Assembly: GCF_003072065.1 (NCBI RefSeq)
Contig: NZ_QCYG01000001.1
Span: 1-64,000, forward strand
Length of the DNA stretch: 64,000 bases
Direction of reading: 5' to 3'
Origin: Thalassorhabdomicrobium marinisediminis
GTDB lineage: Bacteria > Pseudomonadota > Alphaproteobacteria > Rhodobacterales > Rhodobacteraceae
Made by a program: the position numbers and the translations under genes. Position 1 is the stretch's first letter; each line of letters starts with the position of its first letter. The notes below the pieces were generated by a model. That model had not been told where the DNA came from and did not search any database. It was given only the letters and a program-made list of their open reading frames with translations. This document shows positions 5,222-19,530 of this stretch, one piece after another.

Positions 5222-6505
5222 CTAGCGCGTCAGCCGTTTGCGCACCTGTCTGAGCGTCAGCCAGACCAGCGCCACCACAACGGGCACCACCGCCGCCGTG
5301 AACGCGGCTTTCGGGATACCGGACACCTCACGCAGCGGGGCCAGAACATAGAGCACGAGATTAGCCGCGTAGTAGCTGATCGCCACCACCGACAACCCCT
5401 CGACCGTATGTTGCAAACGCAACTGCAGGTCGGCCCGCCGATCCATGCTTTCCAGCAGGGACTGGTTCTGCGCCGAGCGTTCCACGTCCACCCGCGTGCG
5501 CAACAGGTTGCTGGCCCGCATCGCGCGATTCGACATGCTTTCCAAACGGTTGCGGCTTGACGTTACAGTGCGCATCGCCGGATCGAACCGCCGGGTCATG
5601 AAGTCGCGGAAGGTCTGCATGCCTTCGAAACTGCCCTCGCGCAGGATGGTGATCCGCTGGGACACGATCGCCTCATAGGCCTCGGTCGCCCCAAACCGGA
5701 AGGCCGATTGCGCGACCTCGTTTTCCAGCTCCGCCGAGATCACCAGCAGTTGCTGCAGCAGATCGTCCGGGCGCGCCCCGTCGCGCAGCATGTCCGCCGA
5801 GAGAGAGGCCAGCTTGTCCTCGACCTGTGCCACCCGGGGGGCGAGCGCGCGCACCCGCGCCAGACCGAGCATCGCCATAGACTTGTAGGTCTCGATCTCG
5901 CACAGGCGCTGCACCACCCGACCGATGCGCCGGTCATCGCAGGTGTCACCCGCGAAAACCGCAAAACGCGTGTGGCCGGAGTGATCGATGCGGAAATCGC
6001 CGGCGATCACCAGCTCATCCTCAAGCACGCGGCTGATGGCAAGGCTTTCGGGAACGAACCAATCTTCGGCCCGCGCCAGTATCTCGCCCGTGTCCTGCGT
6101 GCGCTCGATACGGATCACCGCCGAGGTGATGCGCGTGGCCTCACACCCGGCGAGCCAGTCCTTGGGGAAAATGTCAAAGGCGTCATCGGCGAAGGGGCGG
6201 TCCGTGCGGGCGATGTCGAAGATGGTGTAAGTCACGAATTCCGTGTGACTTTCCCACTTCAACATATGTTTGCCGATGGGGCCGGAATAATGCGTAGCCC
6301 CGGCCCGGGGATGCGGCGCGCCGAACCGGTCAAGGAGCCGCAAAAGATCCACCATATCCGCGCCGCGATCGCGTCCGGCGGCGTTGGCGGCGGGCTTCAG
6401 CGCCAAAAACAGGGCCTGTCCGGGGGCGCTGATGGTCGGAAAGGGCCGGGCGTGCAGCTCGTTCGACAGCTCATACCTGAGCGGGTGATCGGCGATTGAA
6501 GACAT
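5222..6505 (-). CDS. DUF3422 family membrane-anchored protein
   Basis: A 427-residue protein starting MSSIADHPLRYELSNELHARPFP, the characteristic N-terminal motif of DUF3422. The middle is long and helical, rich in Arg/Glu/Leu, and the C terminus has two membrane segments (LSVVAISYYAANLVLYVLAPL and AAFTAAVVPVVVALVWLTL). This gives a large cytoplasmic domain tethered by two helices, a layout reminiscent of CorA-like proteins, but no GMN motif is present. No biochemical function is established to my knowledge. It is transcribed away from the creatinase gene. Confidence 0.8.
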   Translation of the reverse strand: MSSIADHPLRYELSNELHARPFPTISAPGQALFLALKPAANAAGRDRGADMVDLLRLLDRFGAPHPRAGATHYSGPIGKHMLKWESHTEFVTYTIFDIARTDRPFADDAFDIFPKDWLAGCEATRITSAVIRIERTQDTGEILARAEDWFVPESLAISRVLEDELVIAGDFRIDHSGHTRFAVFAGDTCDDRRIGRVVQRLCEIETYKSMAMLGLARVRALAPRVAQVEDKLASLSADMLRDGARPDDLLQQLLVISAELENEVAQSAFRFGATEAYEAIVSQRITILREGSFEGMQTFRDFMTRRFDPAMRTVTSSRNRLESMSNRAMRASNLLRTRVDVERSAQNQSLLESMDRRADLQLRLQHTVEGLSVVAISYYAANLVLYVLAPLREVSGIPKAAFTAAVVPVVVALVWLTLRQVRKRLTR

Positions 6506-6866
6506 GGAATCGGCAAGCCTGTGCTGCAGCGGGGTCGCGGAGACGATAGCGACTCGAACCCGTGTGTCAAAGAAAAGATGTGCAAATGCAATGATTTAGC
6601 GGAATACAACGGCATACCGTCCGACCGGTCGCACCGGCGGGCAATTTTTGCAAATGTCGCGTTTGCGACACCGTGATGCCGCGTTCAGGCTTGCCGGCGC
6701 GCGCGCCGTGGGGCATCAGACATGCAGGGATGGCGATGGCGTCGCCTGCACATGTGCATAATCCTGTATCCACCTTCCTGAACGCCGGGACTTTTCTTTG
6801 CTGCCGTTGCAGCCGGGGAAGTTCGCTTCTCCGTTGCATCGGCCCGATGACGAGGGAGCCATTGTC
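6506..6866. promoter_or_regulatory. Divergent intergenic region upstream of creatinase
   Basis: 361 bp without a gene between DUF3422 and creatinase. It holds three symmetric elements: TGTCGC-GTTT-GCGACA at 6655-6670, a TGCAGG/CCTGCA inverted repeat between 6723 and 6750, and the perfect 12-bp palindrome TGCACATGTGCA at 6747-6758. A regulator site is likely. I found no convincing -35/-10 pair and nothing resembling a known guanidine riboswitch. Confidence 0.4.
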
Positions 6867-8069
6867 ATGGATCGTCCAGAGTTTTACCGTTTTCATCAGG
6901 GTGAAAAGACCCTTCCGTTCGCCGCGTCCGAGTATGACGCCCGCCTTGCCAAGTTGCGCAAGGACATGGAGGCCAACGGCGTCGAGGCCTGTGTTTTCAC
7001 CTCGATGCACAACATCGCCTATTATTCCGGCTTTCTGTATTGCAGTTTCGGCCGCCCCTACGGGCTGGTCGTCACGCCGTCCGAAAGCGTCACCATCAGC
7101 GCGGGCATCGACGCGGCGCAGCCGTGGCGGCGGTCGCATCAGGACAACATCACCTACACCGATTGGCAGCGGAACAACTACTGGCGGGCGGTGAAGTCCG
7201 TCACCGGCGAGGGAAAAGTGATCGGCTATGAGGGCGATCATCTGACCTTGGCGCAATCGGGCCTGCTGGACGAGTTCCTGTCCCCGTCCAAGCGCGTGGA
7301 CGTGGCCCCGATGACCATGCGTCAGCGGATGCACAAGTCCGAGGCCGAGATCGCCCTGATCCGCCAGTGTGCACAGGTCGCCGATGTGGGCGGCTATGCG
7401 ATCAAGGACGCGGTCAAGGAAGGCGCGCGCGAGATCGACGTGGCCATGGCCGGCCGTGACGCGATGGAGCTGGAAATCGCCAAGCGATTCCCCGACGCCG
7501 AATACCGCGACACATGGGTCTGGTTCCAATCCGGCATCAACACCGACGGCGCGCACAACCCTGTCACCTCACGCAAGCTGGAGCGGGGCGATATCCTGTC
7601 GCTCAACACTTTCCCCATGATCTCGGGGTATTACACCGCGCTGGAGCGGACCATGTTCGTGGGCGAGGTGGACGACGCCAGCCGCAAGGTCTGGGAAGCC
7701 AACGTCGGCGCCCATGAATACGGCATGTCGCTGCTTAAACCCGGCGTGTCTTGCGCCGAGGTCACGCACAAGATCAACGACTTCTTCGCCGAGCGCGACC
7801 TGCTGCAATACCGCACCTTCGGCTACGGCCACTCGTTCGGCATCCTGTCGCACTACTACGGGCGCGAAGCCGGGTTGGAACTGCGCGAGGATATAGACAC
7901 GGTGCTTGAGCCGGGCATGGTGATCTCGATGGAGCCCATGCTGACCATCCCCGAAGACCAGCCGGGCGCGGGCGGCTACCGTGAGCATGACATCCTGATC
8001 ATCACCGAAGACGGGAACGAGAACATCACCGGCTATCCATATGGACCGGACTTCAACGTCGTAGGGTAA
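6867..8069 (+). CDS. Creatinase (creatine amidinohydrolase)
   Basis: A 400-residue pita-bread (M24) family enzyme that hydrolyses creatine to sarcosine and urea in the cytoplasm. It keeps the creatinase-specific residues rather than the metallopeptidase ligands: SFGRPY near residue 60, WFQSGINTDGAHNPVT with the catalytic histidine, ALERTMF, the long invariant run TFGYGHSFG..LSHYYGREAGLELRED, and ISMEPM. These match the Pseudomonas enzyme nearly residue for residue. The ATG at 6867 follows CGAGGGAG. The gene ends just before an intrinsic terminator, so it may be transcribed alone. Downstream DUF1989, transporter and hydantoinase genes fit creatine and creatinine use. Confidence 0.93.
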   Translation: MDRPEFYRFHQGEKTLPFAASEYDARLAKLRKDMEANGVEACVFTSMHNIAYYSGFLYCSFGRPYGLVVTPSESVTISAGIDAAQPWRRSHQDNITYTDWQRNNYWRAVKSVTGEGKVIGYEGDHLTLAQSGLLDEFLSPSKRVDVAPMTMRQRMHKSEAEIALIRQCAQVADVGGYAIKDAVKEGAREIDVAMAGRDAMELEIAKRFPDAEYRDTWVWFQSGINTDGAHNPVTSRKLERGDILSLNTFPMISGYYTALERTMFVGEVDDASRKVWEANVGAHEYGMSLLKPGVSCAEVTHKINDFFAERDLLQYRTFGYGHSFGILSHYYGREAGLELREDIDTVLEPGMVISMEPMLTIPEDQPGAGGYREHDILIITEDGNENITGYPYGPDFNVVG

Positions 8070-8098
8070 GTCACCGACATAGAACAAAAATCAGAACT

Positions 8099-8128
8099 CG
8101 GGCCGTAGCACTTGCTGCGGCCCGTTTT
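8099..8128 (+). terminator. Intrinsic terminator after creatinase
   Basis: Arms CGGGCCG and CGGCCCG are extended inward by AGC/GCT around a short loop and followed by TTTT. It lies 30 bp after the creatinase stop. Confidence 0.75.
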
Positions 8129-8237
8129 CGTGCCGCCGCTCGGGCATTCCGCTCGTCAAGCACCGGCGGGGGCTTTGCATTCGCGGCGAAATCGGGTTGC
8201 CTGCGCGGGATATTTGCCCCCTGAACCGGAGCCCCCG

Positions 8238-9089
8238 ATGAAACCCCAGTCCCCCGCTTTCCCGGCCCCGCTCGATGCCGACGCCCGCCGCGCGGCGCCC
8301 GCGGTGATTTGCTACCCCACGGAAACCCTGCCGCAGCCGGACCTTGCGGCCCTTGCCCGCAGACGCGAAGGCGCGGTGAACGGGGGCCATGTGATCGTGC
8401 CGCCCCGCGACGCGCGCTGCATCGACGTGCCGGCGGGCAGCTTCTTTCGCATCACCTGTCCCGACGGGCCGCAGGTGGGCGATCTGAACCTCTGGTCGGC
8501 GCAGGACCTGACCGAGCATTTCTATTCCGGCAAGACCCGCGCTCTGCACGGCACCCATCTGTCCACCGGCGACAGGCTGTGGTCGCGGTTTCCCGCTATG
8601 CGCCCCATGGCGACGATCACCCGCGACACGCTGGACTGGTATGGCTGGGATGCGGACGGCGGGTCGGTCCACGACGTGATCGGCACCCGCTGCGATCCCT
8701 ATACCGGGCGGCTCTTGGGCGGGGTCGATTATCACTATTGCTGCCACTCGAACCTGACGCGGGCGCTGGCGGATCACTCGGGCCTGTCGCTGGCCCGCGC
8801 CGAACCGCTGGTGCATGACGTGCTCAACGTCTTCATGTGCACCGGTTTCACCGCCGATACGCACCAGTATTTCATGAAGGCCAGCCCGGTGCGCGCGGGC
8901 GATTATCTTGAGTTCTTCGCCGAGATCGACCTGATCGTGGGTCTGTCCGCCTGTCCGGGCGGCGACTGCGGGGATGAGCACACGTCGGACAAGGCGACCT
9001 GTTCACCGCTGCGGATCGACGTCTTCGAGAGCACAGAATCGCACCAGCCGGTGCCGCAAAATGCCTACGATCGCAGCCACGGACGTTAG
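8238..9089 (+). CDS. DUF1989 family protein, possible guanidino-compound (creatine/creatinine) hydrolase
   Basis: A 283-residue DUF1989 (urea-carboxylase-associated) protein. Conserved family segments are VPAGSFFRITCPDGPQVGDLNLW, THLSTGDRLWSR, DVIGTRCDPY, YHYCCHSNL, DVLNVFMCTGF and GLSACPGGDCGDE, rich in Cys, His and Asp that could bind metal. Known DUF1989 enzymes include the carboxyguanidine deiminase subunits CgdA and CgdB of guanidine degradation. Its place between creatinase and a transporter suggests action on a related guanidino or ureido substrate; this is inference. The ATG at 8238 has GGAG 6 nt upstream. Terminators flank it on both sides, so it is probably its own transcription unit. 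Confidence 0.75.
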   Translation: MKPQSPAFPAPLDADARRAAPAVICYPTETLPQPDLAALARRREGAVNGGHVIVPPRDARCIDVPAGSFFRITCPDGPQVGDLNLWSAQDLTEHFYSGKTRALHGTHLSTGDRLWSRFPAMRPMATITRDTLDWYGWDADGGSVHDVIGTRCDPYTGRLLGGVDYHYCCHSNLTRALADHSGLSLARAEPLVHDVLNVFMCTGFTADTHQYFMKASPVRAGDYLEFFAEIDLIVGLSACPGGDCGDEHTSDKATCSPLRIDVFESTESHQPVPQNAYDRSHGR

Positions 9090-9142
9090 GTAAATTGCGC
9101 CGCGCGCGGGCATTTTCTTGCGCCATCCGCCCTGCGCGGGGC

Positions 9143-9172
9143 GGCGAATTCTGCATACAAATTCGCCTTTTT
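9143..9172 (+). terminator. Intrinsic terminator after the DUF1989 gene
   Basis: Arms GGCGAATT and AATTCGCC with a 9-nt loop, followed directly by TTTTT. It separates the DUF1989 gene from the ABC transporter operon. Confidence 0.8.
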
Positions 9173-9209
9173 AGGGACTATTTACGACATCCTGTTCCGG
9201 AAAACGACG

Positions 9210-9224
9210 ATCTGGCCGCCAGAT
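9210..9224. promoter_or_regulatory. 15-bp inverted repeat upstream of the ABC transporter operon
   Basis: ATCTGGC and GCCAGAT flank a single central base. The site lies about 120 bp before the ATPase start and after the preceding terminator, where an operator for the transporter promoter would be expected. The binding protein is unknown. Confidence 0.35.
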
Positions 9225-9335
9225 GCGGGGAATGAGATCGATTGTCCTGAATCCGGTTTAATTGCTTGCAGTGCGGGGGGGCTATGCGTTTAGATCGCGG
9301 CAAATGCGTGGTTAACCCACCGGAAGCTGACAATA

Positions 9336-9340
9336 GGGAG
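9336..9340 (+). promoter_or_regulatory. Ribosome-binding site deciding the TTG start of the ABC ATPase
   Basis: GGGAG with a 6-nt spacer precedes TTG at 9347, exactly where family similarity begins. It favours the TTG over the ATG 63 bp upstream. Confidence 0.5.
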
Positions 9341-9346
9341 CCTCAT

Positions 9347-10447
9347 TTGGCTGATACACTTCGCGACGATGCCTTCGTCGAATTTGAGCGGGTCCAGAAG
9401 AGCTACGACGGTGAAGTGCTCGTCGTGAAGGACCTTAACCTGACGATGCCGAAGGGCGAATTTCTGACCATGTTGGGGCCGTCGGGGTCGGGCAAGACGA
9501 CCTGTCTGATGATGCTGGCAGGCTTCGAGACGGCGACCCACGGGGACATCCGGCTCGACGGGGTCTCGATCAACAATATCCCGCCGCACAAGCGCGGCAT
9601 CGGCATGGTGTTCCAGAACTATGCGCTGTTTCCCCATATGACGATTGCCGAAAACCTCGCCTTTCCGCTGGAAGTGCGCAAGATCGGCAAGTCCGAGCGG
9701 GAAGAAAAAGTGCGCCGCGCCCTCGACATGGTCGAGATGGGCGATTTCGGCGGGCGGCGTCCGGCGCAGCTTTCCGGCGGTCAACAACAGCGTGTAGCCT
9801 TGGCCCGCGCGCTGGTGTTCGAGCCCGAGTTGGTGCTGATGGATGAACCGCTGGGCGCGCTGGACAAGCAACTGCGCGAGAAGATGCAGTTCGAGATCAC
9901 CGATCTGGCGCACAACCTTGGCATCACCACGGTTTACGTGACCCACGACCAGACAGAAGCGCTGACCATGTCCGACCGCGTGGCCGTGTTCGACGATGGC
10001 CGCATCCAGCAGCTGGCCCCGCCGGATCAGCTTTACGAGCAGCCGCAGAACAGCTTCGTCGCCCAGTTCATCGGTGAGAACAACACCCTTGAGGGTGTTG
10101 TCTCGGAGATCAGCGACACCGCCTGCGTGGTGCGCCTTGACAGCGGGGAAGAGATCGACGCGATCCCGGTCAACGTGTCCAAGGTGGGCGAGCGCACCAA
10201 GGTCTCGATCCGGCCCGAACGGGTCGAGATGGACGCCAGCCGCCTGCAACCGGGGGCCCATACGCTCAAGGCGGAGGTGCTTGAATTCATTTACATGGGC
10301 GACATCTTCCGCACCCGCCTGCGGGTGGCCGGACAGAACGAATTTATCATCAAGACACGCAACGCGCCCGATCAGGTGCGTCTGCAGCCGGGCCAGCAGA
10401 TCGAAATCGGCTGGCTGGCCGAGGATTGTCGCGCGCTGGACGCCTGA
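9347..10447 (+). CDS. ABC transporter ATP-binding protein, spermidine/putrescine (PotA) type
   Basis: A 366-residue importer ATPase. Walker A is GPSGSGKTT (about residues 44-52), the Q-loop is FQNYALFPHMT, the signature LSGGQQQR, Walker B LVLMDEPLGALD, and the switch histidine is in VYVTHDQTEAL; a TOBE domain occupies the last 90 residues. I start it at TTG 9347 (then ADTLRDDAFVEFERVQKSYDG), because GGGAG lies 6 nt before it and the family homology begins there; an upstream ATG at 9284 is the alternative. It heads the operon with the binding protein and two permeases. Substrate is not shown by sequence; context suggests a creatine- or hydantoin-related amine. Confidence 0.88.
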   Translation: MADTLRDDAFVEFERVQKSYDGEVLVVKDLNLTMPKGEFLTMLGPSGSGKTTCLMMLAGFETATHGDIRLDGVSINNIPPHKRGIGMVFQNYALFPHMTIAENLAFPLEVRKIGKSEREEKVRRALDMVEMGDFGGRRPAQLSGGQQQRVALARALVFEPELVLMDEPLGALDKQLREKMQFEITDLAHNLGITTVYVTHDQTEALTMSDRVAVFDDGRIQQLAPPDQLYEQPQNSFVAQFIGENNTLEGVVSEISDTACVVRLDSGEEIDAIPVNVSKVGERTKVSIRPERVEMDASRLQPGAHTLKAEVLEFIYMGDIFRTRLRVAGQNEFIIKTRNAPDQVRLQPGQQIEIGWLAEDCRALDA

Positions 10448-10541
10448 GGGGGCGTCGCGCACGGCAAAAGCTTGGGGGCCCTGATCTCGGAGTGAGCCCC
10501 CGACTGTAACGTGAAAATCCGGGAAACAAGGGAGACTACGA

Positions 10542-11657
10542 ATGAAGCTTACCAAGACACTTCTGGCGACCACGGCCCTGGGCCTGACAGCCGCAGGCGC
10601 CATGGCACAAGAAGAGATGGCGAACGACATGACGCTCGTCAGCTGGGGCGGGGCCTATCAGGCGTCGCAGGTGAACGCCTATGCCGAGCCCTACAAGGAA
10701 AACAATCCCGAAGTGACGATCACCTGGGACGAAAGCTCGAACGAGGCTGTGGCCAAGCTGCGCGCCATGAACGAAGCCGGCTCGATCACCTGGGACGTGG
10801 TGGACGTTGTGGCGTCGGACGCGCTGCGTCTGTGCGACGAAGGTCTGGCGATGGAGATCGACCCGGACGAGATTCTGGCCGCCGCACCTGACGGCACCTC
10901 GGCCGAGGATGACTTCGGCGACCTTCTGGTTGGTGACTGTTTCATCCCTCAGATCGTCTATTCGACCACCTTCGGCTATCGCACGGACATGGTGCCCGAA
11001 GGCGTGGACGCACCCGACGACATCTGTGATGTCTTCGATCTTGAGACCTATCCCGGGATGCGCGCGCTCGAGAAGCGCCCGATCAACAACGTGGAATGGG
11101 CGCTGCTCTGTGACGGTGTAGCCAAGGAAGACGTCTACGACGTTCTGGCCACCGAGGAAGGCCAGCAGCAGGCTCTCGACAAGCTGGCCACGATCAAGGA
11201 CAGCGTGATCTGGTGGTCCGCCGGGGCCGATACGCCGCAGCTTCTGGCCGATGGTGAGGTCTTCATGGGCTCCACCTACAACGGGCGTCTGTTCTCTGCC
11301 ATCGTCGAGCAGGACCAGCCCATCGGCATGATGTGGGACGCCCAGGTGTTCGACCTTGACGGCTGGATCATCCCCGAGGGCCTGCCCGAGGACCGGCTGA
11401 ACCGCGCGCTGGACTTCATCATGTACGCGACAGACACCCAGCGTCTGGCCGATCAGGCGAAATATATCTCCTACGGACCGGCCCGCCTGTCCTCCGCTCC
11501 GCTGGTGGGGCAGCACGCCGAGCTGGGCATCGACATGGCCCCGCACATGCCGACCGACCCGGAGAACGCCAAGAACACGTTCCTGTATAACTACGAGTTC
11601 TGGGCCGACTATCGCGACGACATCGACGCGAAGTTCCAGTCCTGGCTCGCGCAGTAA
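10542..11657 (+). CDS. ABC transporter substrate-binding protein (PotD-like)
   Basis: A 371-residue periplasmic binding protein. The signal peptide MKLTKTLLATTALGLTAAGAMA probably ends at AMA, with QEE as the mature start. The mature part begins MTLVSWGGAYQASQ, typical of the extracellular-solute-binding family 1 / PotD-like group, and includes WDVVDVVASDALRLCDEGL and GSTYNGRLFSAI. A GGGAG ribosome-binding site precedes the ATG. It lies 94 bp after the ATPase, with a weak stem between, and is followed by a strong hairpin, a pattern that often raises binding-protein mRNA relative to the permeases. Confidence 0.9.
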   Translation: MKLTKTLLATTALGLTAAGAMAQEEMANDMTLVSWGGAYQASQVNAYAEPYKENNPEVTITWDESSNEAVAKLRAMNEAGSITWDVVDVVASDALRLCDEGLAMEIDPDEILAAAPDGTSAEDDFGDLLVGDCFIPQIVYSTTFGYRTDMVPEGVDAPDDICDVFDLETYPGMRALEKRPINNVEWALLCDGVAKEDVYDVLATEEGQQQALDKLATIKDSVIWWSAGADTPQLLADGEVFMGSTYNGRLFSAIVEQDQPIGMMWDAQVFDLDGWIIPEGLPEDRLNRALDFIMYATDTQRLADQAKYISYGPARLSSAPLVGQHAELGIDMAPHMPTDPENAKNTFLYNYEFWADYRDDIDAKFQSWLAQ

Positions 11658-11668
11658 GTCAAAGATCA

Positions 11669-11694
11669 GGGAAGGGGCGGTTGCGCCCTTTCCC
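11669..11694 (+). terminator. Intercistronic stem-loop after the binding-protein gene
   Basis: An 11-bp stem (GGGAAGGGGCG with CGCCCTTTCCC, one G-T pair) closes a GTTG loop. No run of T follows at once, so it more likely protects the 3' end of the upstream message or attenuates than fully terminates. Confidence 0.55.
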
Positions 11695-11764
11695 GACCTG
11701 ACATTTGTTTTGACCTTTTTGACGACCTTCAAAGACCAACAAGAAACTGCACGCGGGGAACGAT

Positions 11765-13489
11765 ATGAGTGACACCACAGGGCCAGACCAAATCACCGGC
11801 GCCACTCCGGACAACGCCCTGCGCAATGCCGACCGGGCCGAGGTTCAGGACGGGCCGATGCTCGCCGCGGACGGCCGGCCGCTCAAGGAAAGCCTTGGAC
11901 GGGCGTTGCGGCGTCAGAAGATGCGGGCGCTGTTGCTGGTCGCGCCGCTGCTGCTGTTTGTTCTGCTGACTTTTGTCGTTCCCATCGTCTCCATGCTGTT
12001 CCGCTCGGTCGAGAACCAGATCGTGTCGGACACGCTGCCCGGCACGGTGCAGGCCATGGCCGACTGGGACGCATCAACGGGCGACGTGCCGCCCGAGCCG
12101 GTATTCCAGAACCTGTTTTTCGACCTGTTCGACGCGGCCGAGGCGAAAGAGCACACCAAGCTCGGCACCCGCCTGAATTACGAGAACACCGGCCTCGCGT
12201 CGCTGTTCCGCACCTCGGGGCGGTCGATGGATGACATCGGCGAAATCTTTCAGGACGCCATAGAAGAGGTTGACCCCCGGTTTGAAGAGGGCGCCTTCTG
12301 GTTTGCCATGATGAACGGCGAGGGCAATTCCGCCGTTCTGGCCGACCAGCGCCGCCGGTGGGAGGCTTTGACCGGCGACGACATGGATGGTGACATCGGG
12401 TTCGCGCCCTCTCAGGCCATCGTCGATCTTTTGCCCCAGACCGCGCGCGCCTATACCAGATTTGCGATCTGGACCGCGATCGAGGACGAAGACGTGGTCG
12501 CCGAAGAAGACCCGTGGGAAGCGTTCTATGCCGCCCTTGCCCTTGATCTGCGCGATCCGGCGACGGTCTCTGCCATCGCGGACTATCAGGGCGAGGGGGC
12601 CGATGCCCTGCGTGCGCTGGCCGCCGCGGACCTGCCCGACGTCAGCTTCAAGGACGCCTTCGCCGAGCTGGACGAGGATTGGCTGTCGCCGTCGGTCTGG
12701 GAAACGCTCTCGGTTTACAGCGCCTCCTTCACGCCGGGCTATTTCCTCAATTCCGTTGATCGCGAACTCACGAGCGACGGCGTCTCCCTGCGGCCCGAGA
12801 ACGAGCGGATCTATATCAAACTGTTCGGGCGCACGTTGTGGATGTCGATGATCATCACCTTCAGCTGCATCTTGCTCGGCTATCCGGTGGCCTGGCTGCT
12901 GGCGAACCTGCCGGCGCGGACGGCCAACGTGCTGATGATCCTTGTGCTGCTGCCCTTCTGGACCTCGCTTCTGGTGCGCACCTCGGCGTGGAAAGTGCTT
13001 CTGCAACAGCAGGGCGTCATCAATGAGCTGCTGGTCTGGCTGGGCTTCATCGACAACGCGAACCGGCTGGTGCTGATGAACAACTCGACCGGCACGATCA
13101 TCGCCATGACGCATATCCTGCTGCCGTTCATGATCCTGCCGCTCTATTCGGTGATGAAGACGGTGAACCCGTCCTATCTGCGCGCCGCGAAGTCGCTGGG
13201 CGCAACCAACTGGACCGCGTTCTGGCGGGTCTATTTCCCCCAGTCGGTGCCGGGCATCGGGGCGGGGTCGATCCTCGTCTTCATCCTCGCCATCGGCTAC
13301 TACATCACGCCGGAAATCGTCGGCGGCACCGATGGTGTCTTCATCTCGAACCGGATCGCCTATCACATTTCACGGTCTCTGAACTGGGGCCTTGCCGCGG
13401 CGCTGGGGACGATCCTTCTGGTCGTCGTGCTGATCCTCTACTGGTGCTACGATCAGATCGTAGGCATCGACAACGTCAAGCTGGGGTAA
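11765..13489 (+). CDS. ABC transporter permease 1 (PotB-like) with large periplasmic insertion
   Basis: A 574-residue permease, about twice the usual PotB length. The first membrane helix is at about residues 58-80 (LLLVAPLLLFVLLTFVVPIVSML). A non-membrane segment of about 265 residues follows, acidic and helical, and then five more helices starting near residue 350. The EAA loop that docks on the ATPase is YLRAAKSLGATNWTAFWRVYFPQSVPGI. The extra domain should lie in the periplasm between helices 1 and 2 and could meet the binding protein. It sits directly before permease 2, 4 bp apart. Confidence 0.88.
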   Translation: MSDTTGPDQITGATPDNALRNADRAEVQDGPMLAADGRPLKESLGRALRRQKMRALLLVAPLLLFVLLTFVVPIVSMLFRSVENQIVSDTLPGTVQAMADWDASTGDVPPEPVFQNLFFDLFDAAEAKEHTKLGTRLNYENTGLASLFRTSGRSMDDIGEIFQDAIEEVDPRFEEGAFWFAMMNGEGNSAVLADQRRRWEALTGDDMDGDIGFAPSQAIVDLLPQTARAYTRFAIWTAIEDEDVVAEEDPWEAFYAALALDLRDPATVSAIADYQGEGADALRALAAADLPDVSFKDAFAELDEDWLSPSVWETLSVYSASFTPGYFLNSVDRELTSDGVSLRPENERIYIKLFGRTLWMSMIITFSCILLGYPVAWLLANLPARTANVLMILVLLPFWTSLLVRTSAWKVLLQQQGVINELLVWLGFIDNANRLVLMNNSTGTIIAMTHILLPFMILPLYSVMKTVNPSYLRAAKSLGATNWTAFWRVYFPQSVPGIGAGSILVFILAIGYYITPEIVGGTDGVFISNRIAYHISRSLNWGLAAALGTILLVVVLILYWCYDQIVGIDNVKLG

Positions 13490-13493
13490 GAAT

Positions 13494-14711
13494 ATGTCCA
13501 TCGTTACACCAAACGTCCCGCATCCACCCCTTGCCACCTTCACCATGCCGTTGATGGCGGTGCTGACCGCGATGTTCGGCTTCGTCGGCGGCAACATGGT
13601 CGGCCAGCCCTGGATCGGGGCGCTGATCGGCGCCGTGCTGGGCGCGATCATCGCTTGGGTGATCGACATGATGCCCGCGCAGCGCACGCAGATGCGCTGG
13701 GGGCTGATCATCGTGCTCTTCGTGGCGGGGCTGGTCTTCGGCAATCTGGGCACTGCCATCTCCGGCACGTTGATCGGCGCGGTGCTGGGCTGGGTCGGCT
13801 ACTGGCTCGCCACCGGCGCCTATCGCAAGCGGGTGCCGATCTACTACACCGCCGGGCAAACGCTGTGGCACAACACCTTTTTGTTCATCTGCGGGCTGGT
13901 GTTCTTCTTTCTGATCGCGCCGCTGCTGCCGGTGATCTGGCTCAGCTTCAACGCCGAGAATTTCTTTACCTTCACCCCCGAGATGCTGAACTTTCAGGCC
14001 GAGGGCTACAGCCTGAAGCATTACCGCGATTTCCTCGGCACCGATGAATGGATGGTGCCGCTGAAGAACTCGCTGATTATCGCCCCCATCGCGACGATCA
14101 TCTCGGTTTCATTGGGCACGCTGGCCGCCATTGGTCTGAGTCAAAGCCACGTGCCCGGGCGCCGCGCCATCATGGCGGTGCTGATCTCTCCGATGATCGT
14201 GCCGCTGATCATCTCGGCCACGGGGATGTTCTTTTTCTACGCGCCGCTGGGCAACTGGCTTGAGGCGAACCTCGGCCTGTCGCAGTCCTTTGTTGGCTAC
14301 GTGAAGGTCATTCTGGCCCATGCGGTGCTGGGCATTCCCTTCGTCATCATCACCGTGACGGCGACTCTGGTGGGCTTTGACGACTCGCTGACGCGGGCGG
14401 CGGCTTCCATGGGGTCCTCTCCTGTGCCGACCTTCTTCAAGGTGCAGATGCCGCTGATCCTGCCCGGCGTGATCTCCGGCGGGCTGTTCGCCTTCATCAC
14501 CTCGTTTGACGAAGTCGTCGTGGTGCTTTTCGTCGGCTCCGCCCAGCAGCAGACCCTGCCGTGGCAGATGTTCACCGGCCTGCGCGAACAGATCTCGCCC
14601 ACCATTCTGGCAGCGGCGACGGTGCTGGTGGTGATGTCGATCCTGTTGCTGACCACCGTGGAATTGCTGCGCCGCCGGTCCGAGCGGTTGCGCGGGCTCA
14701 GCCCCTCCTAG
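13494..14711 (+). CDS. ABC transporter permease 2 (PotC-like) with N-terminal membrane extension
   Basis: A 405-residue permease. Residues 1-110 form three extra hydrophobic, Gly-rich helices (for example GALIGAVLGAIIAWVIDMM) not found in ordinary PotC, and the usual six-helix permease follows. Its EAA loop is LTRAAASMGSSPVPTFFKVQMPLILPGV. With permease 1 and the ATPase it completes a type I importer. The gene starts 4 bp after permease 1 and ends 13 bp before the LysR gene. Confidence 0.88.
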   Translation: MSIVTPNVPHPPLATFTMPLMAVLTAMFGFVGGNMVGQPWIGALIGAVLGAIIAWVIDMMPAQRTQMRWGLIIVLFVAGLVFGNLGTAISGTLIGAVLGWVGYWLATGAYRKRVPIYYTAGQTLWHNTFLFICGLVFFFLIAPLLPVIWLSFNAENFFTFTPEMLNFQAEGYSLKHYRDFLGTDEWMVPLKNSLIIAPIATIISVSLGTLAAIGLSQSHVPGRRAIMAVLISPMIVPLIISATGMFFFYAPLGNWLEANLGLSQSFVGYVKVILAHAVLGIPFVIITVTATLVGFDDSLTRAAASMGSSPVPTFFKVQMPLILPGVISGGLFAFITSFDEVVVVLFVGSAQQQTLPWQMFTGLREQISPTILAAATVLVVMSILLLTTVELLRRRSERLRGLSPS

Positions 14712-14724
14712 GTCCTGCGTCCCA

Positions 14725-15642
14725 ATGATCGGCACTGTGCTGACCCTCAAACAACTTGAGGCGCTGGTCTGGGTGGCGGAACTGGGCAGCTTCCGGCGGG
14801 CGGCGCATCATCTGAACACGACGCAGCCCAATATCTCGTCGCGCATCGCGGGGCTTGAGGCGGCGCTGGGCGTCGTGCTGATGCAGCGCGACGCCCGCGC
14901 GATCACGCTGACCGACAAGGGGCGCGACATACTGGCCGCCGCCCATGAGGTGCTGCGCGCCGCCGAGCAGATCGTCGAGATCGCCGAACGGCCCGACCTT
15001 GTCGCCAACCGGCTGCGGCTGGGGGTGACGGAACTGGTCGCCTGCACCTGGCTGCACGCCTATCTGCGGCGGATCAAGGCGGCCTATCCTGCGCTGAACG
15101 TGGAGCTCACCGTCGATGTGTCCCGCGCGCTGGACGCGGAACTGCAGGCCCGGCGGCTTGACCTCGCGATCCAGACCGCTCCCTTTGCCACGCCCGCAAG
15201 CCGGACGATCCCGCTGGGGGACTTCCCCTATATCTGGGTCGCCGCGCCGCAGATTGCCCGGCGTCTGACCGGACGACACAGCGTGGCCGATCTGCTGCCC
15301 CATTCGGTCCTGACCCACGCACGGCACACGCAGGCCTATGTCGAGTTTATCAATTATATCAATGCGCAGGGCCTGTCCGCGTCGCGCGTTGTCTCGTCGA
15401 ATTCGCTGGCCTCCTGCGTGCAGATGGCGGCGGACGGCATGGGCGTGACCCTGCTTCCCGCCAGCCTTGTCTCGCGTGAGTTGGCGCGGGGGGACCTGTC
15501 CCGGATCGACGTGGACTGGCACCCGCCACCGTTGCAATTTGCCGCCCGCTATCAAGCGGAGACCGCCGCGCGCTATCTGGACGTGGTCGCCGATCTCGCG
15601 GTTGAGGCCGTGGCGGAGCAGGGCGGCGATAGATCAGAATAA
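14725..15642 (+). CDS. LysR-family transcriptional regulator
   Basis: A 305-residue LysR regulator. The winged helix-turn-helix is LTLKQLEALVWVAELGSFRRAAHHLNTTQPNIS at the N terminus, and a substrate-binding domain follows. It lies in the same direction between the transporter and the hydantoinase genes, not divergent as LysR genes often are, so it may be part of the transporter transcript. An inverted repeat of LysR-box form overlaps its 3' end in front of hyuA, suggesting it controls hyuAB. The co-inducer is unknown; a hydantoin or creatinine-derived ligand would fit. The start codon has only a weak ribosome-binding site. Confidence 0.88.
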   Translation: MIGTVLTLKQLEALVWVAELGSFRRAAHHLNTTQPNISSRIAGLEAALGVVLMQRDARAITLTDKGRDILAAAHEVLRAAEQIVEIAERPDLVANRLRLGVTELVACTWLHAYLRRIKAAYPALNVELTVDVSRALDAELQARRLDLAIQTAPFATPASRTIPLGDFPYIWVAAPQIARRLTGRHSVADLLPHSVLTHARHTQAYVEFINYINAQGLSASRVVSSNSLASCVQMAADGMGVTLLPASLVSRELARGDLSRIDVDWHPPPLQFAARYQAETAARYLDVVADLAVEAVAEQGGDRSE

Positions 15643-15648
15643 TCTATC
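15628..15648. promoter_or_regulatory. LysR-type box in front of hyuA
   Basis: Arms GATAGAT and ATCTATC are separated by 7 bp and contain the T-N11-A pattern of LysR binding sites. The site overlaps the end of the lysR gene, 79 bp before the hyuA start, in an AT-rich stretch unlike the surrounding DNA. Confidence 0.45.
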
Positions 15649-15726
15649 AACCCGATCCCAATAAATAATTGGCGCTGATGATACCTTTCAGCCAAGCTGC
15701 GCGGGACTGACCAGAAAGGCGCGCCC

Positions 15727-17820
15727 ATGACCGATCCATCCCCACCCAAACAGGCGATCCGACTGGGCGTCGACATCGGCGGCACCTTCACCGACGTGGT
15801 GCTTGAGGTGGGGGCGTCCTCCTATTCCACCAAGGTGCTGACGACCTATGCCGCCCCCGAAAACGCAATTATCGACGGGATGCATCAGGTCTGCGCAAAG
15901 GCCGGGATCGCGCCCGGCGACATTGGCCAGATCATCCACGGCACGACGCTGGCGACCAATGCGCTGATCGAACGGCGCGGCGCGAAGACCGCGCTGATCA
16001 CCACCGAAGGCTTCCGCGACGTGATCGAGATGCGCACGGAATCGCGCTTCGAGCAATACGACCTGAACCTTGAGCTGCCCGAGCCGCTGCTGCCGCGTCA
16101 CATGCGCTACACCGTGCCCGGACGCATCGACGCGAGTGGGGCCGAATTGGTGCCCCTGACCAAGGAGCAGATCGCCCCCGTGGTCGAGGAGATCGCCGCC
16201 GCCGGGTATGACAGCGTGGCCGTGGGGCTGATCCATTCCTACCTCAACCCCGCCCATGAAGAGCGCGTGCGCGAGGTTCTGGCGGAGAAGATGCCCGACG
16301 CCATGGTTTCGATTTCCTCCGAAGTCAGCCCCCAGATGCGCGAATACGAACGTTTCAACACGGTCGTCGCCAATGCCTACATCAAGCCGCTGATGAAATC
16401 CTATCTTGGCCGTCTCAAGGGGCGGCTGGCCGATGAGGGCGTGACCTGCAACGTCTTCCTGATGCACTCGGGCGGGGGCATCATCTCGCTCGAGAATGCC
16501 GCCGATTTCCCCGTGCGGCTGGTGGAATCCGGCCCCGCCGGTGGCGCGGTCTTCGCCGCCCATATCGCCGCGCGGTATGGCTTGGACAAGGTGCTGTCGT
16601 TTGACATGGGTGGCACGACAGCCAAGATTTGCCTGATCAAGAACCAGACGCCGAAAACCAGCCGGGTGTTCGAGGTTGCGCGCACCTACCGGTTCAAGAA
16701 AGGCTCGGGCATGCCGATTTCGATCCCCGTGATCGACATGGTCGAGATCGGGGCCGGGGGCGGATCGCTGGCCCATGTGGACGCAATGCAGCAAATCCGC
16801 GTCGGCCCCGAAAGCGCCGGGTCGGAGCCCGGTCCGGCCTGCTACGGGCGCGGCGGGGAACGTCCGGCGGTGACGGATGCCGATTTGGTGCTGGGCAAGC
16901 TTGATCCGGACAACTTCGCAGGCGGCAGCATCAAGCTGACCCGCAGTAACTCCGAGACCGCGTTGCAAGCGGTGCTGGGCGACCCGTTGGAGATGGACGC
17001 GCAAACCGCCGCGTTCGGTCTGGCCGAGGTGGTGGACGAGAACATGGCCAACGCCGCCCGCGTCCACGCGGTCGAGAACGGCGAGGATCTGTCGGATTAC
17101 ACGATGATTGCCTTCGGCGGGGCTGCCCCGCTGCACGCCGGACGTCTTTGCGAAAAGCTGGGCATCGATCGCTGCCTTGTGCCTCCCGGCGCCGGCGTCG
17201 GCTCGGCCATTGGGTTCCTGCGCGCGCCGTTTTCCTTTGAGGCCAACCGCTCGATCTACATGACGCTGGACGCCTTCGACGCCGGTGCGATCAAGACGCT
17301 TCTGTCGGAACTGCAACAAGAGGCCACGGCTTTCGTGCGCAATTGCGACGCCCACAGCGACATCCTGTCGGAGTTCAAGGTCTATATGCGCTACAAAGGG
17401 CAGGGGTGGGAGATCCCGATCACCCTGAGCGAAGCGCAGGCCATGGCCCCCGATGCCGCGACCTTCCAGAGGCTGTTCGAGGCGGAATACGCCAAGCTTT
17501 TCAGCCGCACGGTCGAAGGTCTGGACGTCGAGATCACCGTCTGGTCGGTCAATGCCACAACCCCGCCCGCGGCCGTCGATCCGGTGGCGGAGGCCGAGCA
17601 GCACCGCTCTGCGACCCGACACGCCACCCGCGCGCTTTACGATCCGGCCCAAGCCGAAGCGGTCGAGGCCGCCGTGGTGCGCCGCGACGGGATGGACGCC
17701 GGACATCACATCGCGGGCCCTGCCATCATGACCGAGGACGAAACCACCATCATCGTGCCCACAAGCCGCACCGCCCTGCGCCAGCCCGACGGCTGCATCG
17801 ACCTGCGCGTGAAAGGATAA
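15727..17820 (+). CDS. hyuA: ATP-dependent hydantoinase/oxoprolinase, subunit A
   Basis: A 697-residue member of the hydantoinase A / N-methylhydantoinase A family. The actin-like ATP-binding start is RLGVDIGGTFTDVVLE, and further conserved parts are IIHGTTLATNALIERRGAKTALITTEGFRD, SFDMGGTTAKICLI, and EIGAGGGSLAHVD with SEPGPACYGRGG. With HyuB these enzymes open 5-membered imide rings such as N-methylhydantoin or 5-oxoproline using ATP. Opening N-methylhydantoin gives N-carbamoylsarcosine, a known step of creatinine breakdown, which would fit the creatinase upstream. The exact substrate cannot be read from the sequence. It is separated from hyuB by 3 bp. Confidence 0.9.
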   Translation: MTDPSPPKQAIRLGVDIGGTFTDVVLEVGASSYSTKVLTTYAAPENAIIDGMHQVCAKAGIAPGDIGQIIHGTTLATNALIERRGAKTALITTEGFRDVIEMRTESRFEQYDLNLELPEPLLPRHMRYTVPGRIDASGAELVPLTKEQIAPVVEEIAAAGYDSVAVGLIHSYLNPAHEERVREVLAEKMPDAMVSISSEVSPQMREYERFNTVVANAYIKPLMKSYLGRLKGRLADEGVTCNVFLMHSGGGIISLENAADFPVRLVESGPAGGAVFAAHIAARYGLDKVLSFDMGGTTAKICLIKNQTPKTSRVFEVARTYRFKKGSGMPISIPVIDMVEIGAGGGSLAHVDAMQQIRVGPESAGSEPGPACYGRGGERPAVTDADLVLGKLDPDNFAGGSIKLTRSNSETALQAVLGDPLEMDAQTAAFGLAEVVDENMANAARVHAVENGEDLSDYTMIAFGGAAPLHAGRLCEKLGIDRCLVPPGAGVGSAIGFLRAPFSFEANRSIYMTLDAFDAGAIKTLLSELQQEATAFVRNCDAHSDILSEFKVYMRYKGQGWEIPITLSEAQAMAPDAATFQRLFEAEYAKLFSRTVEGLDVEITVWSVNATTPPAAVDPVAEAEQHRSATRHATRALYDPAQAEAVEAAVVRRDGMDAGHHIAGPAIMTEDETTIIVPTSRTALRQPDGCIDLRVKG

Positions 17821-17823
17821 CCC

Positions 17824-19530
17824 ATGCCCCAGCCTTCAAACGTCGCCTATCAAGTCATGTGGAACCGGCTCATTTCGGTCGTTGAGGAACAGGCGCAAGC
17901 GCTGGTCCGCACCGCATTCTCCACCTCGGTGCGCGAGGCGGGGGATCTTTCGGCGGGGGTCTATGACATTGACGGGCAAATGCTCGCTCAAGCGGTCACC
18001 GGCACGCCGGGGCACGTCAACGCCATGGCCGACGCGGTGGCCCATTTCATCCGCCGTATCGGCCGCGAGAATATCTTCGAGGGTGACATCTACATCACCA
18101 ACGACCCGTGGGAAGGCACCGGCCACCTGCACGACATCACCATGGTCACGCCGTCCTTCCACAAAGGCGCGCACGTGGGCTTTTTCGCCTGCACCGCGCA
18201 TATCGTCGACATCGGCGGGCGGGGGTTCGGCGCGGATGCGGCGAGCGTCTATGAAGAGGGGCTTTATATCCCCATCATGAAGTTCGCCGACCGCGGTGCG
18301 GTGGATCAGACCCTTCTGCGGATCGTGCGCGGCAACGTGCGTGAGCCCGACCAGCTTGTGGGCGACCTTTATGCGCTGGCCACCTGCAACGACATCGGCC
18401 ACCGCCGACTGATCGAGATGATGGAGGAGTTCGGGCTGGACGACCTTGCGGGCATCTCCGACTTCATCCTGACCCATTCGCGCCGTGCCACGCTCGAGCG
18501 GATCGCCGCCCTGCCGCAGACCAGCGCCGAGGGGGAATTGACCATCGACGGGTTCGACACGCCGATCACGCTAAGGGTGCGCGTCTCGGTCGAGAAGGAC
18601 CGGATCCTGTCGGATTTCGCCGGCACCTCGGGGGTGGACAAAAAGGGCATCAACTGCCCGCTGGTCTATACCAAGGCCTATGCCTGCTATGCGCTCAAGG
18701 TGGCCATCACGCCGGAAATTCCCAACAACGCCGCCAGCCTTGCCCCGTTCGAGATCGCCGCGCCAGAGAACACAATCGTCAACGCGAAGCATCCGGCCCC
18801 CGTGGCCTTGCGCCATATTATCGGGCATTTCGTCCCCGACGCGGTGTTCAACGCCTTCGACCAGATCGTGCCGGGTCTGGTCCCGGCCGAGGGGGCGGGC
18901 TGTCTGTGCAACTTTCAGGTCAGCCTGCGGCCCCGCAGCGATGCACCGGCGCCCGCAGATGCGCGCCGGTCCGAGGTGCTGACCTTCAACTCCGGCGGCT
19001 CCGGCGCGCGGCCTGCCTTTGACGGGCTCAACGCCACGGCGTTTCCGTCGGGCGTGATGACCATGCCGGTCGAGGCCACGGAGCACGCGGGCCCCGTCAT
19101 CATCTGGCGCAAAGAGCTGCGCCCGGACAGCGGCGGGGCGGGCAAGCAGCGGGGCGGACTGGGGCAATGCATGGAGGTCGGCGCGCGTGCGGGGCATGAG
19201 TTCGACATTCAGGCCATGTTCGACCGTGTGGATCATCCCGCCAAGGGCCGCCGGGACGGTGCGGCGGGCGCGCCCACCACCATCGCGCAGGACGACGGCA
19301 CGCCCATGCGCGGCAAGGGCAAACAGTTCGTGCCCCACGGGCGTCGCGTGATGATGGCGTTTCCGGGCGGCGGCGGCTACGGCGCGCCACAGGACCGCCC
19401 GCGCGATCTGGTGAAACGTGACCTGTTGCACGGCTATATCTCGGCCGAGACCGCCGCCCAAGTTTACGGGTTGGCCGAGGCGGAAATCGCCGAGGTGGAG
19501 GCGTTGCGCGCCCGTGGCGGCACGCTTTAG
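17824..19530 (+). CDS. hyuB: ATP-dependent hydantoinase/oxoprolinase, subunit B
   Basis: A 568-residue HyuB family protein, partner of HyuA. Conserved runs include REAGDLSAGVYDIDGQMLAQAVTGTPGHV, IYITNDPWEGTGHLHDITMVTP, GFGADAASVYEEGLYIP and the glycine-rich end MMAFPGGGGYGAP. An AAAGGA site inside the end of hyuA precedes the ATG. It ends the rightward series and converges with the alpha-glucosidase gene, 11 bp apart, without an obvious hairpin between them. Confidence 0.9.
   Translation: MPQPSNVAYQVMWNRLISVVEEQAQALVRTAFSTSVREAGDLSAGVYDIDGQMLAQAVTGTPGHVNAMADAVAHFIRRIGRENIFEGDIYITNDPWEGTGHLHDITMVTPSFHKGAHVGFFACTAHIVDIGGRGFGADAASVYEEGLYIPIMKFADRGAVDQTLLRIVRGNVREPDQLVGDLYALATCNDIGHRRLIEMMEEFGLDDLAGISDFILTHSRRATLERIAALPQTSAEGELTIDGFDTPITLRVRVSVEKDRILSDFAGTSGVDKKGINCPLVYTKAYACYALKVAITPEIPNNAASLAPFEIAAPENTIVNAKHPAPVALRHIIGHFVPDAVFNAFDQIVPGLVPAEGAGCLCNFQVSLRPRSDAPAPADARRSEVLTFNSGGSGARPAFDGLNATAFPSGVMTMPVEATEHAGPVIIWRKELRPDSGGAGKQRGGLGQCMEVGARAGHEFDIQAMFDRVDHPAKGRRDGAAGAPTTIAQDDGTPMRGKGKQFVPHGRRVMMAFPGGGGYGAPQDRPRDLVKRDLLHGYISAETAAQVYGLAEAEIAEVEALRARGGTL

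Follow-up and report, generated by a model that had tools for sequence, protein, structure and literature searches.

Two enzymes built on the DUF1989 domain (PF09347) have been characterised: carboxyguanidine deiminase (PMC12186494, PMC11410670) and the TMAO demethylase Tdm (PMC12560246). The first, CgdAB, is defined in the available text of PMC11410670 by the clade that CgdA and CgdB form on the PF09347 tree. Its members, UAAP1 and UAAP2, are encoded as a two-gene pair beside a carboxylase. Tdm joins DUF1989 and GcvT domains, and the available text of its report describes three cysteines, C263, C279 and C343, as the ligands of a zinc site (PMC12560246). A further subfamily is represented by SPO0365 of Ruegeria pomeroyi, solved as 3di4; the literature that we found on DUF1989, as far as its available text extends, assigns this type no function. 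The SPO0365 orthologue group is one of those listed as unique to roseobacters making sulfur-containing aminolipids (PMC8319176, Table 2), and according to the same text it was another gene, salA, that proved responsible for those lipids. Also solved is TM1040_0329 (3oru and 3siy), a DUF1989 protein whose structure title names no function.

Here we describe a DUF1989 gene in a 64,000-nucleotide stretch of the Thalassorhabdomicrobium marinisediminis genome (the window). A first-pass annotation had reported a lone, Cys/His-rich DUF1989 protein beside a creatinase and had proposed that it deiminates creatine or creatinine, or handles the urea released. Much of that description survives, namely the family, the single copy, the missing carboxylase, the hairpins and a creatinase that recurs in a few relatives; the proposed role in creatine or urea metabolism finds little support, as the enzyme occurs widely and does not depend on creatinase.

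A single-copy DUF1989 gene between a creatinase and a Pot-type transporter

The open reading frame at 8238–9089 on the forward strand begins with ATG and encodes 283 residues, at exactly the coordinates first reported. Its product scores 161.9 bits against PF09347 (cut-off 27), which places it in the family and is its sole Pfam match. With 10 Cys and 13 His among its 283 residues, it is indeed rich in both. It is also the only PF09347 match in the entire source genome (3.43 Mb, 35 contigs), so there is no gene for a paired second DUF1989 subunit. The features of the locus, all on the forward strand, are as follows.

6867..8069, + strand: creatinase (creatine amidinohydrolase, M24 family), 400 aa, upstream of DUF1989
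8099..8124, + strand: terminator-like hairpin, 11-bp stem followed by TTTT, between creatinase and DUF1989
8238..9089, + strand: SPO0365-type DUF1989 protein, 283 aa, with conserved H145, D146, C152, C169, N172 and C239
9095..9109, + strand: weaker terminator-like hairpin, 6-bp stem, just 3′ of DUF1989
9266..10447, + strand: PotA-like ABC transporter ATPase (TIGR01187, 385 bits; cut-off 355.6)
10542..11657, + strand: PotD/SBP_bac_8-type solute-binding protein
11765..13489, + strand: PotB-like ABC permease (below the PotB cut-off)
13494..14711, + strand: PotC-like ABC permease (below the PotC cut-off)
14725..15642, + strand: LysR regulator
15727..17820, + strand: HyuA, hydantoinase/oxoprolinase A
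17824..19530, + strand: HyuB, hydantoinase/oxoprolinase B

The product of 6867–8069 aligns over its entire length with creatinases of known structure (1chm, E 7e-152; 7yto, 7e-151; 1kp0, 8e-144) and by this measure is a genuine creatinase, so the reported adjacency stands. The terminators ascribed to the DUF1989 gene were likewise recovered on both sides of it as consensus matches; by such matches only, 12 terminator-like sites occur in 6500–15800, compared with 5.6 ± 2.4 in shuffled sequence. The hairpin at 8099–8124, lying between the two genes, speaks against co-transcription of creatinase and DUF1989.

Directly downstream of DUF1989 and on the same strand lies a Pot-type ABC transporter (9266–14711) that was absent from the first-pass annotation. 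Judged from its sequence, the PotA-like gene probably starts at the TTG at 9347. The ligand of the binding protein is not fixed by its solved relatives, which include 8jv1 (titled spermidine/putrescine-binding), a GABA sensor, and agropine and other types; a literature search on structures 8jv1–8jv4 found no relevant paper. The LysR gene is probably the regulator of a separate HyuAB cassette, and HyuA and HyuB are probably neighbours of the DUF1989 system rather than part of it.

Elsewhere in the source genome, the urea/guanidine carboxylase model TIGR02712 found only partial matches and none over its cut-off, as the first pass had supposed for the locus; the genes that usually accompany carboxyguanidine deiminase are absent from this genome. 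Neither creatininase (PF02633) nor TMAO demethylase (NF053776, E ≤ 1e-100) had a match. One urease alpha gene is present, which the earlier annotation had not listed; it gives the urea that creatinase releases an ordinary route.

Subfamily placement and conserved motif

The best solved relative of the window protein is SPO0365 (3di4; phmmer E 9e-129 over residues 6–283), with 3oru and 3siy far behind as sequence matches (E 1e-8). A structure model of the window protein, built from 40 related sequences (pLDDT 86, pTM 0.87), matched 3di4 with a Foldseek TM of 0.90 at 66% identity over near full length and a VIA Z of 36.2, compared with 20.6 and 20.5 for 3siy and 3oru and with 5.7 or less for the next rows. 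TM1040_0329 thus has the same DUF1989 fold, but it is shorter and only about 25–28% identical to the window protein. Foldseek gave no significant fold match outside DUF1989, all five chains at E ≤ 0.001 belonging to that family.

In a family tree of 29 rows, from which one mis-cut Tdm row was left out, the window protein groups with sequences of the SPO0365-like and Klebsiella/Azospirillum types (100/100). The three UAAP1 and three UAAP2 rows, chosen from records with an adjoining carboxylase gene and taken as CgdA/B, form a clade (99/96) that excludes it, and the Tdm domains form a clade of their own (100/100). A tree constrained to put the window protein among UAAP1 and UAAP2 was rejected by the AU test (p 5.4e-5). 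The protein also carries the CCHSN and ACPGGDC motifs, as read from alignments, that mark the SPO0365 type. On sequence and tree placement, it is an orthologue of the SPO0365 subfamily, and it adds one more orthologue to that already known group.

Six residues, H145, D146, C152, C169, N172 and C239, are common to the window protein, the UAAP2 rows and the correctly cut Tdm rows; the three cysteines and the H145–D146 pair are present in 3/3 UAAP2 and 5/5 correctly cut Tdm rows. Because C152, C169 and C239 align with the conserved cysteines of Tdm and UAAP2, they are putative metal ligands, and we infer by analogy that they would hold either Zn or Fe. In other respects the window protein differs from Tdm: it has no GcvT domain, scores 20.1 bits against NF053776 (cut-off 1100) and belongs to a separate clade. 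With CgdAB it shares the PF09347 domain and, in UAAP2, the equivalents of H145, D146, C152, C169 and C239. By contrast, UAAP1 has lost C152 and C169, whereas the window protein is single and retains them all. The window protein thus differs from CgdAB in its clade, in lacking a paired gene and in lacking a carboxylase partner over cut-off, in agreement with the view that it is not of the CgdA/CgdB type.

Distribution and co-occurrence with creatinase

A strong DUF1989 orthologue, defined by a best E of 1e-60 or better, is present in 202 of 295 genomes of the family Rhodobacteraceae (218 had any match at 1e-3, and 16 weak ones were set aside), and a creatinase (E ≤ 1e-100) in 199. Both genes occur in 166 of these genomes, DUF1989 without creatinase in 36 of the 202, and creatinase without DUF1989 in 33. 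The resulting odds ratio is 8.4 (p 6e-15, uncorrected for shared descent). Odds ratios are also high for DUF1989 with the transporter's binding protein (8.2) and for creatinase with the transporter (4.9), so that shared lineage may explain much of the association between DUF1989 and creatinase. For DUF1989 and HyuA the corresponding value is 1.4 (p 0.27).

A second set comprised 285 genomes that belong to the class but not to the family. Of these, 22 have DUF1989 (E ≤ 1e-40), 28 have creatinase (E ≤ 1e-100) and 3 have both, with 2.2 expected, which is no association. The co-occurrence across genomes that a creatinase partnership had led one to look for is thus at chance level outside the family and imperfect within it.

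Two genomic contexts, with creatinase in few

Our neighbourhood sample, drawn from the 20 and the 80 loci of highest score with flanks of at most about 10 kb, leans to near relatives of the window, and islands are therefore over-represented in it. Among the 20 best-scoring family loci (L062–L081, ∼9.5 kb on each side), creatinase was close in two, L063 and L067; of 18 loci retrieved for their creatinase, a set that leaves out the DUF1989 contig L097 and the filler L099, none had DUF1989 within ∼9 kb. In the best 80 of 578 relatives (L195–L274), the neighbours were DeoD in 44, SdhA in 39, PotA in 8, SBP in 7, a diaminopropionate-lyase-like gene in 6, an EutA-like gene in 5 and creatinase in 4, two of these four (L197 and L217) being genomes G294 and G197 again.

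The 126 distinct DUF1989 sequences placed on a tree divide into 56 sdh/deoD, 19 island and 51 other rows (some on short contigs), a row counting as island when one or more Pot-transporter or island-enzyme genes lie no further than 12 kb from DUF1989. Leaving out Shinella, a branch of support 79 (not starred) parts the 18 island rows from the 56 sdh/deoD rows. Some near kin of SPO0365 itself (L223, L230 and L233) have the gene near sdhA and deoD, unlike the uptake island of the window; other Ruegeria loci show an island (L200) or neither context (L209, L244). Creatinase of at least 50% identity lies within 12 kb in 6/19 island, 0/56 sdh/deoD and 1/51 other rows, and four changes are needed to account for it among the island rows. 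In G141 it stands in the same island ∼14 kb from DUF1989, outside the 12-kb count. The reported creatinase link is thus no one-off, since it recurs in relatives, but it is confined almost wholly to islands. Taken with the 3 coincidences versus 2.2 expected outside the family, these counts indicate an enzyme independent of creatine metabolism, and the adjacency with creatinase is a local, lineage-bound arrangement.

The starred set of five rows that includes the window shows this most directly. The Pot transporter is on the same strand as DUF1989 in all five, and creatinase is present in three, on either side. Gene order is creatinase–DUF1989–Pot transporter in the window, DUF1989–Pot transporter–creatinase in L063 and L198, DUF1989–Pot transporter in L196, and DUF1989–(M20 and M24 on the other strand)–Pot transporter in L195. 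The steady pair in this set is DUF1989 and the transporter, while creatinase comes, goes and switches side. In G197, DUF1989, a lyase-like gene, M24, an EutA-like gene, PotA, SBP, two permeases and creatinase form nine genes on one strand. Transporter and creatinase start ∼4 kb apart in G210 and G055, with DUF1989 elsewhere, and where the same transporter occurs without DUF1989, a DoeA-like M24 gene is found in 13/17 loci.

Outside the family, 20 of the 22 loci were compared (L167–L186), and no partner was common to more than two unrelated loci: a ComM-like Mg-chelatase protein, an ABC ATPase-like protein (labelled from sequence) and a third cluster were each shared by two, no cluster by three, and creatinase occurred in one (L177). 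Seven plasmid loci carry SPO0365- or K-type genes. In two of them an amino-acid/Ehu-type ABC transporter precedes the DUF1989 gene on its strand, immediately in Bradyrhizobium and with GntR interposed in Klebsiella. A third, from Shinella, has M24 and M20, and in the remaining four neither a transporter nor a hydrolase gene adjoins DUF1989.

Two further arrangements were seen. A recurring trio of EutA-like racemase, M24 hydrolase and diaminopropionate ammonia-lyase-like genes stands by SPO0365-type DUF1989 and a Pot-type transporter in L126 (5833–16082), L225, L235 and L081. On the Klebsiella plasmid (L190, 6810–10726), the amino-acid-type ABC transporter, GntR and K-type DUF1989 genes are compact, with a pxpA-labelled gene a few kilobases off.

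Proposed role and its alternatives

We propose, with a probability of about 0.5, that the window protein is a stand-alone SPO0365-type DUF1989 enzyme for the hydrolysis of a C–N bond in a small solute of the amidine, guanidine or ureido type, encoded in the island lineage beside a Pot transporter. In many Rhodobacteraceae its gene stands alone, close to deoD and the genes for succinate dehydrogenase. In the lineage of the source genome it lies by a Pot-type transporter in a solute-uptake island with a variable set of other members: creatinase, DoeA-like M24 hydrolase, ArgE-like M20, EutA-like and diaminopropionate-lyase-like proteins. With a metal presumably held by the Cys triad, as in TMAO demethylase, it would act without a second DUF1989 subunit, and in the island lineage the island transporter would supply its substrate. 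Creatinase would then be one partner among several alternatives in the use of such solutes, and not of necessity its metabolic neighbour. The proposal of C–N hydrolysis draws on the chemistry of carboxyguanidine deiminase and TMAO demethylase and on the transporter or hydrolase neighbours in 3/7 plasmid loci. Given that no partner recurs in more than two unrelated loci outside the family and that 4/7 plasmid loci are bare, the idea of an imported solute rests on a minority of loci. A bolder form of the proposal, which we hold to be rather unlikely, makes this a third catalytic kind within DUF1989: a stand-alone, metal-dependent deiminase or hydrolase of a free amidine or guanidine solute, drafted into a modular island of a marine lineage. 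Its substrate would be ectoine-, creatinine- or guanidino-acid-like, and creatinase, DoeA-like hydrolase and HyuAB would be interchangeable partners around one Pot-type transporter.

The alternative that we take most seriously, while still doubting it, is that of a housekeeping or metabolite-repair enzyme that removes an endogenous by-product, the island being merely a new address whose neighbours carry no functional information. The 53–70% identity of DUF1989 across many alphaproteobacterial families is consistent with this, as are its position, mostly as a lone gene near sdhA/deoD or among unrelated genes, and, outside the family, its independence of both creatinase and DoeA; its patchy presence (22/285 non-family genomes) and its pairing with transporters in several lineages argue against an essential role of this kind. 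Chemistry on an N-oxygenated amine, such as cleavage of an N-oxide or N-hydroxyguanidine, appears improbable. The same motif occurs in the Tdm rows, the substrate of Tdm is an N-oxide (PMC12560246), and DUF1989 paralogues lie directly beside gntA/YcgG-type N-hydroxylase genes. However, both the gnt-linked rows and Tdm fall into clades separate from the window protein, and no N-hydroxylase label was seen beside the seven annotated SPO0365/K-type loci. As for a solo CgdAB acting on carboxyguanidine or in a urea pathway, the shared Pfam family and a Cys triad of the kind kept in UAAP2 are outweighed by the AU test, by scores of 35.7 for TIGR03424 (cut-off 284.7) and 24.8 for TIGR03425 (cut-off 205.95), and by the missing carboxylase partner, which together leave it scarcely credible. 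Nor did anything point to handling of released urea, a reading that was rejected: a urease gene is present, and no match to urea carboxylase exceeds its cut-off.

That the protein deiminates creatine or creatinine, or works together with creatinase, we consider quite improbable, and likewise the bold form of this reading, a creatinine deiminase feeding the ATP-dependent hydantoinase HyuAB (15727–19530). DUF1989 does include a deiminase clade, the source genome has no creatininase match, and the creatinase-bearing island rows include single-strand clusters in G294 and G197. HyuAB, moreover, falls within the fetched DUF1989 stretch in the window, L081, L225 (Planktomarina) and L235. Nevertheless, creatinase is all but confined to island rows and coexists with DUF1989 at chance level outside the family, a hairpin parts the two genes, and no pointer to either substrate was found. 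Coupling to HyuAB was rejected: none of 12 other HyuA loci (L297–L308) has DUF1989, 7/12 have their own LysR and 10/12 a FAD-dependent oxidoreductase (PF01266), and the association with HyuA across the family is slight. An ectoine-pathway enzyme was also considered, on account of DoeA-like M24, M20 and EutA/B/C-like neighbours, and was not upheld. Outside the family, DoeA (TIGR02993, E ≤ 1e-60) occurs in 5/22 DUF1989-positive and 9/58 DUF1989-negative genomes, no clear difference. Of the five M24 proteins scored, that of L065 exceeds the ectoine hydrolase threshold (621.6; cut-off 613), and the other four do not reach it (568.7, 576.3 and 606.3, with 444.4 for the one in Shinella). On these grounds, naming either creatine or ectoine as the substrate is not warranted.

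The proposed C–N hydrolase would be best approached through the solute of the transporter: since creatinase is lineage-bound and the Pot transporter steadier, assays are redirected from creatine to what the transporter carries. A solved close orthologue and presence in about two-thirds of the family genomes make this subfamily a tractable gap in bacterial nitrogen metabolism.

Other gene clusters

Across 16 loci with a HyuA–HyuB pair (the window, L297–L308, L081, L225 and L235), a LysR gene is present in 8 and a cluster of FAD-dependent oxidoreductases (DAO, one member scanned) in 13, the window being without it; HyuA and HyuB scores lie far below the caprolactamase cut-offs.

On Comamonadaceae plasmids, DUF1989 paralogues labelled "urea carboxylase-associated family" lie directly 3′ of gntA or YqcI/YcgG N-hydroxylase genes (L288, 5274–6576; L278, 5280–6585), and the same gntA/YcgG–DUF1989 adjacency appears by label in Sphingomonas (hit H40). 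N-hydroxylase and DUF1989 paralogue possibly form a two-gene N-hydroxylation pathway. Members of another DUF1989 clade are accompanied by amidase and polysaccharide-deacetylase-like genes, or by M20 and cupin genes (L194, 3729–6591; L279, 5896–10301; L277, 4625–7221). ABC transporter genes occur in all three stretches, directly upstream in L194 and L277, and these clusters look like ureide or cyclic-amide catabolism.
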